From an uncultured Clostridia bacterium (lineage in GTDB: Bacteria; Bacillota; Clostridia; Christensenellales; Borkfalkiaceae): a stretch of 64,000 bases of DNA. This document shows positions 53,963 to 56,119 of the stretch, in pieces. Position numbers and translations under genes: made by a program. Below the pieces are notes generated by a model. That model saw only the letters and a list, made by a program, of their open reading frames with translations. It was not told the origin of the DNA and did not search any database. Location: contig CASDOP010000009.1 of the NCBI GenBank assembly GCA_949282385.1, positions 1 to 64,000 on the forward strand, written 5' to 3'. The first letter of the stretch is position 1. Every line of letters starts with the position of its first letter.

Positions 53963-54015
53963 TTAGAGCCTGACGGGCATGCCACGTCCGCGCCGATACT
54001 CTTAAAGCTAATTGT

Positions 54016-54090
54016 CGCGGCGCTTGCGCCGCGGCATTTTCACGCTGAATATACCAAAAAAGGAGCGGCTGAGGCAAATGCCTCAGCCGC
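54016..54090. terminator. Two hairpins after the SPFH gene
   Basis: GCGGCGC/GCGCCGC near 54016-54034 and GCGGCTGAGGCA (54065-54076) with TGCCTCAGCCGC (54079-54090). They end the SPFH gene and, on the other strand, the small gene at 54134-54274. Confidence 0.7.
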
Positions 54091-54133
54091 CGCAATGTTA
54101 TTTGGTTGTTTCGCTTTACAGCCCGCTTAATTT

Positions 54134-54274
54134 TCAGTCCCTGTTGTACTGCGCGTGAAAGCGCTTTATTTCCTCTTCGTCTGTGGAAATGTGCTGCAGC
54201 GCACCCGTAAATTCGTTTGCGCTTACAGTCTCTTCGGCTATATCCGTAAATTTATTTTTGTGCTTGTTCTTCAT
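54134..54274 (-). CDS. Hypothetical small protein
   Basis: 46 residues: MKNKHKNKFTDIAEETVSAN then EFTGALQHISTDEEEIKRFHAQYNRD, charged and probably helical with no membrane segment. There is no good ribosome binding site, but the frame is clean, ends in a bona fide stop and is followed by a terminator hairpin. The family is unknown. Confidence 0.5.
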   Translation of the reverse strand: MKNKHKNKFTDIAEETVSANEFTGALQHISTDEEEIKRFHAQYNRD

Positions 54275-54311
54275 GCAATTATTATCGGAAATTTTTTACG
54301 TTTTTATTCGC

Positions 54312-54347
54312 GCCCTCCGCATGATTGCGCGCAATCATGCGGAGGGC
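54312..54347. repeat. Perfect 36-bp palindrome
   Basis: GCCCTCCGCATGATTGCG (54312-54329) is followed at once by its exact reverse complement (54330-54347). It has no T-run and no adjacent gene start. It could be a strong bidirectional terminator-like stem or a binding site for a dimeric protein. Confidence 0.65.
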
Positions 54348-54456
54348 ATGCGCTGAAAAACACACCATTTTATAAATAAATGAGGGTTGCGCAGGACATA
54401 TTAAAGCTTCTGGCGCAAAAGGGTGCGATACTATGTGTCTGAAAAGCATTAAAAAA

Positions 54457-54486
54457 TGCCGCCTCGGGCGAATTGCCCGAAGCGGC
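54457..54486. terminator. Terminator downstream of the 54499-55650 gene
   Basis: TGCCGCCTCGGGC (54457-54469) pairs with GCCCGAAGCGGCA (to 54486), followed on the minus strand by TTTTTTAATG. Confidence 0.82.
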
Positions 54487-54498
54487 ACCTCTTTAAAA

Positions 54499-55650
54499 TC
54501 AATTGTTTGAAAGCGAATATATAATGTTAATTTCAATATTGGCATTGCCTACAATATCCTGTTGAGCCTGACTGATTGTGTCGGAGGTGAGAATAAATTC
54601 TTCGGTACTTCCGTTTATAGTTACATAAAGTATGCTTCCTTCAATACTGTACACTCCGTACATAGTATATCCCTGAATAGTATATGAGCAGGAAGTATCG
54701 TTTGTGAAAGTAAAATACGAACCTTCACCTATCATATTGTTCATGCTTATCACTTCGTCAATTTCCGCCTGCGTTAAATCGCCCGACAAAACCTCCACTT
54801 CCGTGCCGTAGAATGAAAAGACTTTTCCCGACAGTGTGGTAGAGGGAATTTCCGGCATTGACCCGTTTTCTTCAAGGGTATATTCCATGGTAAGATAAAT
54901 GCCAGTTACGTCGCCCATAAGAATTTCGTCCGACTTGATGATTTTGTTTCCTTCGAGGATAAAATCTTCGTTATCGTTCTCTAATGTTATGGTGATTGTA
55001 TTTGCCGCAAAGGCATAATTGCCCGTCATTATGTTGCCGCCAAGACTGACGACGCAGACGCTTTCGTCGTAAAACGCAAGGTATGCGCCTTCAACCATGA
55101 CGCTGAACTGGCTTTCCAGATCGGCGATCTCTGCCTGCGACAAATTGCCCGTCATATCTTCGATTTTTACATCGCTCACATAGAAAATTTTGTTCGCGAG
55201 AGAGGTAATTTGTCCGTCGGGGTTATCTGGTCCGTCGGGATTTTCGGGCGTTACGCTCTGCTCTGTCTGCTTAAATTTAACCGTCGCGACAAAACTTTCT
55301 TTTTGCATTTTGTACTCAATGGCATTTCCGTTGACGGTAAACTCGTTTTTAAGACCGCTTAAATCGATATTGATTTTGTTGCCATCCTGGGTGTATGTGC
55401 CTTTGGTAACGTTGCTGCCCTGGCTTACTGTAACGCTGCCGTCTGTATCGAAAGAAATCTGCATGCCTGCGTACATCCCTTCCAGATTTTCAGACACATC
55501 GGCGTTCTCCTGTTCGGTGCCGCCCGTTACGGTTATGCTTTCAAACACATATGTATTGCCCTCTACGCTCGTCGTGCCTCAACCTGAAAAGGCTCATGCC
55601 GCAAAAATCATGCACAGCGCAAGAACGATACAGGAAATAACTTTTTTCAT
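54499..55650 (-). pseudogene. Lipocalin-like lipoprotein gene with two in-frame TGA codons in the signal peptide
   Basis: ATG at 55650 follows AAGGAGC and a consensus-type promoter. The frame reads MKKVISCIVLALCMIFAA, TGA (55594-55596), AFSG, TGA (55579-55581), GTTSVEGNTYVFES and then on without further stops to 54499. The second TGA falls exactly where the lipobox cysteine (SG-C) should be. Downstream are three similar beta-rich lipocalin-like modules with NKIFYVSDVKIEDMTGNLSQAEIADLES and related repeats. Either the gene is inactivated or TGA is read through. TGA is a normal stop elsewhere in the window. A GTG at 55548 has no ribosome binding site. Confidence 0.75.
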
Positions 55651-55690
55651 CTCAATGCTCCTTTATAATAAATTGGTTTTATTGAATACA

Positions 55691-55719
55691 TTAATAATAT
55701 CGCGGACAATATTTGTCAA
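55691..55719 (-). promoter_or_regulatory. Promoter of the TGA-interrupted lipoprotein gene
   Basis: Minus strand TTGACA (55719-55714), 17-bp spacer, TATTAA (55696-55691), about 40 bp before the ATG at 55650. Confidence 0.6.
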
Positions 55720-56085
55720 TACCGACGAGAAGCAATTAACTTTTTCCGACGCGCGGTCGCATTATCTCACACGCAAAACCCTGACGGGGCAAAAAATTAA
55801 TTGCCCCGCACATATGCCGCGGCGAAATAAACTGCGCCTTATGTCCGCACAAACTATACCCGCGCGGAAACTTCTGCGCGGAATATAATTTGCAGGCATT
55901 TTTAAGACGGCAATCGTTGAGGCGCGCATTGTCTGTTTATGGCAAAATCAAGCGCCGCGCCAATCCTTTTACATTTATTTTAAGCGCACCCCCCTAATCT
56001 CTTTACGCACATATAGCCCTCATTGTGTTTACAGGCATACATTTTAAGCGCACCCCCCCCCCAATGCGTTTACGGGCATAATTAT
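55720..56085. repeat. Gene-free stretch with two 64-bp repeats and a C10 run
   Basis: ATTTTAAGCGCACCCCC occurs at 55977 and 56041 with similar following sequence (TTTACNNNCATA), giving two units 64 bp apart. The second holds ten C in a row (56053-56062). Several small GC hairpins occur upstream. No coding sequence is supported. Confidence 0.6.
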
Positions 56086-56119
56086 AGCGCCCCGCGCGGA
56101 AACTTCCGCGCGGGGCGCT
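56086..56119. terminator. Terminator of the ribosomal alpha operon
   Basis: AGCGCCCCGCGCGGAA (56086-56101) pairs with TTCCGCGCGGGGCGCT (56104-56119), a 16-bp perfect stem about 20 bp after the rplQ stop. Confidence 0.88.

Follow-up and report, generated by a model that had tools for sequence, protein, structure and literature searches.

Two in-frame TGA codons in the signal peptide of a lipocalin-like lipoprotein gene of a Clostridia bacterium probably mark its recent inactivation

A minus-strand gene in the genome of an uncultured Clostridia bacterium reads as a complete lipoprotein gene except for two TGA codons inside its signal peptide, one of them at the position of the lipidated cysteine. 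Is the gene dead, is UGA read as an amino acid here, or is the sequence in error at both sites? The window analyzed is a 64,000-nt stretch of one contig, and the first-pass annotation had offered three options for this locus: recent inactivation, read-through as a regulated switch, and base-calling error.

The broken gene occupies 54499-55650 of the window (minus strand, ATG at 55650) and translates as MKKVISCIVLALCMIFAA-stop-AFSG-stop-GTTSVEGNTYVFES..., so the two in-frame TGA codons described initially were found at codon 19 (55596-55594) and codon 24 (55581-55579), both inside the signal peptide. Beyond codon 24, the frame is open until its own terminal TGA at 54501-54499. With a dicodon model built from the long frames of this genome, the 358 codons 3' of the second TGA scored +295 bits, every 40-codon slice being positive, so the downstream frame is truly gene-like; the stop-free run of about 360 codons reported earlier was thus borne out. 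In alignments with intact homologues, codon 24 (AFSG-stop) falls on their lipobox cysteine, as had been proposed; the lipobox cysteine codon is missing from this gene, with TGA in its place where the homologues carry Cys. Codon 19 may formerly have been Cys too. It lies in a lipobox-like context (IFAA-stop), which is in keeping with the earlier suggestion, but other codons that are one step from TGA could also have stood there.

The mature part (54499-55578, minus strand) consists of three homologous lipocalin-like repeats resembling DUF4923, DUF5640, and Lipocalin_4. In a self-comparison, repeats 2 and 3 matched with an E-value of 6e-15 and repeats 1 and 2 with 6e-8, and the first repeat exceeded the curated Pfam cut-offs of DUF4923 (25.9 versus 22.8 bits) and Lipocalin_4 (23.8 versus 22.4 bits). 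The single-sequence AlphaFold model of the protein was poor (pLDDT of 46). The gene is single-copy in its own genome. Distant homologues were found in the genus, family, and order at 25-40% identity, mostly covering one or two repeats, and in the inspected ones the signal peptide is that of an ordinary lipoprotein and contains Cys (e.g., ...FALAGC-SKDVKGNTYVFD and ...FAFTGC-NVEGNTYIYD). The homologues in the genus and family, which belong to the lipocalin-like lipoproteins (DUF4923, PF16270; DUF5640, PF18692; Lipocalin_4, PF13648), share the signal peptide, a GNTYVF-like motif, and the repeat with the broken copy, whereas the latter has three repeats and no lipobox Cys codon. The first in-frame stop removes most of a frame that is conserved in these relatives.

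A ribosome binding site (AAAGGAG, 55658-55664, minus strand), read directly from the sequence, lies 7 nt 5' of the ATG, and a strong intrinsic terminator was predicted 3' of the gene (54451-54493, minus strand). The promoter-like element TTGACA-17-TATTAA (55691-55719, minus strand) has a perfect -35 hexamer, but its -10-like hexamer TATTAA is imperfect, for which reason it received no score in the consensus scan. The initial description of intact signals therefore stood for the ribosome binding site, start, frame, and terminator, while the promoter is weaker than it implied. Further upstream, in the intergenic region at 55972-56058, we noted two 23-nt direct copies ending in C runs, the longer of which could be length-variable or error-prone.

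The persistence of the start signals and of the signal-peptide coding pattern could also mean that the truncated frame is itself the functional unit, a free signal-peptide gene whose 18-residue hydrophobic product would be processed into a pheromone- or inhibitor-like signal. There is a precedent in enterococci, whose pheromones correspond to the final residues of lipoprotein signal peptides and whose plasmids encode competing inhibitor peptides of similar size (PMC7117660), and a stop exactly at a lipobox-like context would suit such a peptide. However, the long downstream frame would then be needless and should decay, and the gene is absent from relatives; we regard this analogy with the enterococcal plasmid precursors as highly improbable here.

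The possibility that UGA is decoded was evaluated across the draft assembly, which comprises 21 contigs. About 1.77 Mb of the genome was read, all but C7:60001-60592 and the final 141 bases of C16, and about 4.9 kb of the assembly is N. TGA ends 636 of the 1698 long frames (37% of stops), and prfB, encoding the UGA release factor, is present (505 bits; cut-off, 370). In the coding-score scan of the genome, no other mid-gene stop or TGA was found, and the listed cases look like gene boundaries. On these three results, a reassignment of UGA in the genetic code was rejected. Selenocysteine decoding was rejected as well, as the assembly yielded no tRNA-Sec (the best matches were tRNA-Ser, below the cut-off) and no SelB (best match of 168 bits against a cut-off of 242). 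tRNA-Cys species with a UCA anticodon occur in some anaerobic bacteria (PMC7609411), which makes a search for this anticodon a fair test. None was found among 51 tRNAs, where tRNA-Cys was seen only with GCA and tRNA-Trp only with CCA, and UGA-Cys decoding by tRNA-Cys(UCA) is unlikely on this census, which is incomplete in that it misses tRNA-Ala and tRNA-Ile. The missing tRNAs are probably explained by rRNA operons that failed to assemble. A recoding element from Rfam near the two stops was also rejected, as only sub-threshold chance matches were obtained. The locus resembles selenocysteine or selC* tRNA-Cys(UCA) recoding in having in-frame UGA where relatives carry Cys; in contrast to those systems, none of the decoding parts sought turned up in the assembly.

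The lipoproteins of the genome were used as a further comparison. A genome-wide lipobox scan, which recovered the broken gene as a positive control, found 42 other lipoproteins, with the lipobox cysteine encoded by TGC in 34, by TGT in 8, and by TGA in none; TGA thus stands at the lipobox in just one of 43 lipoprotein signal peptides. Double lipobox-like contexts are present in 4 of the 42 normal lipoproteins. Taken with the normal stop use, prfB, and the absent decoding parts, the Cys codons of the other lipoproteins make a special decoding system unlikely.

A switch in which UGA is decoded as Cys, Sec, or Trp, yielding the full-length lipoprotein under some condition, is accordingly very hard to sustain. 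It would account for two TGA codons that are both one step from Cys codons and both in lipobox-like contexts, as well as for the intact downstream frame, and the missing tRNA-Ala and tRNA-Ile genes leave room for a hidden tRNA. It has to contend, however, with the lack of tRNA-Sec, SelB, and a UCA-anticodon tRNA, the presence of prfB, the isolation of this case among the 43 signal peptides, the lack of an Rfam recoding element, and two stops in series. Trp is the usual near-cognate insertion at UGA, and it would restore no lipidation site. Regulated read-through, as put forward initially, was not upheld, since neither UGA-decoding machinery nor another lipobox TGA was found, the homologues have Cys, and two successive stops would have to be read. 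We give a similarly slim chance to the reading that an unrecognised or near-cognate tRNA reads the lipobox UGA at a low level, with lipidated protein appearing only in a subset of cells, or that the cut-off signal peptide itself now serves as a secreted signal. If true, UGA decoding at the lipobox cysteine would be a new way of switching lipidation.

The arrangement of the two stops bears on how they arose. They are separated by 15 nt, and the 384 codons show neither a frameshift nor a further stop, which counts against recent inactivation. A stop would arise from about 4% of the single substitutions possible in the gene (135 of 381 x 9), so two independent neutral hits should come with roughly 50 substitutions in all and probably with indels. 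Of the pairs among the 111 codons that a single change can turn into a stop, only 2.5% fall within 5 codons of each other. Both figures were computed after the fact on a feature picked for its oddness. The clustering is better explained by a single multi-base or local event, or by an artefact, than by two independent hits or slow decay. The stops sit in two imperfect 15-nt units (FAA-stop-A and FSG-stop-G, 55576-55605, minus strand) that are alike at 10 of 15 bases, a likeness that hints at slippage or local conversion. Gene conversion was rejected because no other copy of the 25-mer that could act as donor was found, the nearest having 6 mismatches. A tandem duplication carrying one TGA to both sites is no more than suggested by the likeness of the units, as 3 of the 10 matches are the TGA itself.

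The clustering would also fit an error at both sites from assembly, base calling, or the collapse of strains, in which case some or all of the population would carry an intact gene. Two lesions in the same local context, in a frame otherwise unbroken and in a draft assembly of this kind, are what such an error might leave. It would, however, have required two substitutions rather than indels, and no similar error was found breaking other genes, the coding-score scan being free of other mid-gene TGA. We consider an error, or a mixture of strains, less likely than inactivation but a serious rival to it.

The genomic setting was compared with that of the nearest species available (G085), which shares 96% DNA identity across the neighboring rplQ-rpoA. 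A segment of the window bearing the gene (54348-56087) is absent from G085, which has 127 bp instead. No orthologue was shown in other genus members (93 genomes), and no close orthologue was found among these or the 398 family and 396 order genomes. A pattern kept neutral at both TGA sites had no match in genome or viral contigs, and a protein scan for close strains returned no relative; records very near the genome of the window were possibly excluded from both searches. As the nearest species lacks the gene, it is dispensable at the genus level.

Other differences and features were noted in the same region. G085 carries an extra frame resembling a membrane protein (201 aa; L171 6832-7437) after the SPFH-type gene, which the window lacks at 53963-54117. 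The region from rplQ to the SPFH gene is thus variable in both directions. An unlisted small frame of about 45 codons at 54138-54275 (minus strand; MKNKHKNKFTDIAEETVSANEF...), which has 87% DNA identity in G085, is probably a real small gene. Perfect inverted repeats of 18 bp and 16 bp flank the gene-bearing segment (54312-54347 and 56086-56119) and are probably terminators of the neighbor genes. The broken gene is a lineage-specific accessory lipoprotein gene in this variable spot, which fits easy loss.

We conclude, with a probability of about 0.72, that nonsense changes in the signal peptide recently inactivated this accessory lipoprotein gene, which encodes three lipocalin-like repeats. 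Among the three original options, this one is best supported, as the homologues have Cys, the nearest species lacks the gene, and TGA is a normal stop in this genome. Because the transcription and initiation signals remain, the mRNA would probably still be made. Ribosomes would stop at codon 19 and release at most an 18-residue hydrophobic peptide, and the second stop at codon 24 would block the remainder. The downstream frame would be intact because the lesion is young, and the clustering makes one local mutational event, rather than two, a possible origin of both stops. The gene resembles nonsense-inactivated bacterial lipoprotein pseudogenes in its intact regulatory signals and frame, its early stops, and its dispensability in relatives; it differs in having two close stops in the signal peptide and is otherwise in no way unusual. 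For other draft genomes, the case is a caution that clustered stops at striking positions need a check of the reads ahead of any recoding proposal. For this bacterium, it points to the routine loss of an accessory surface protein.
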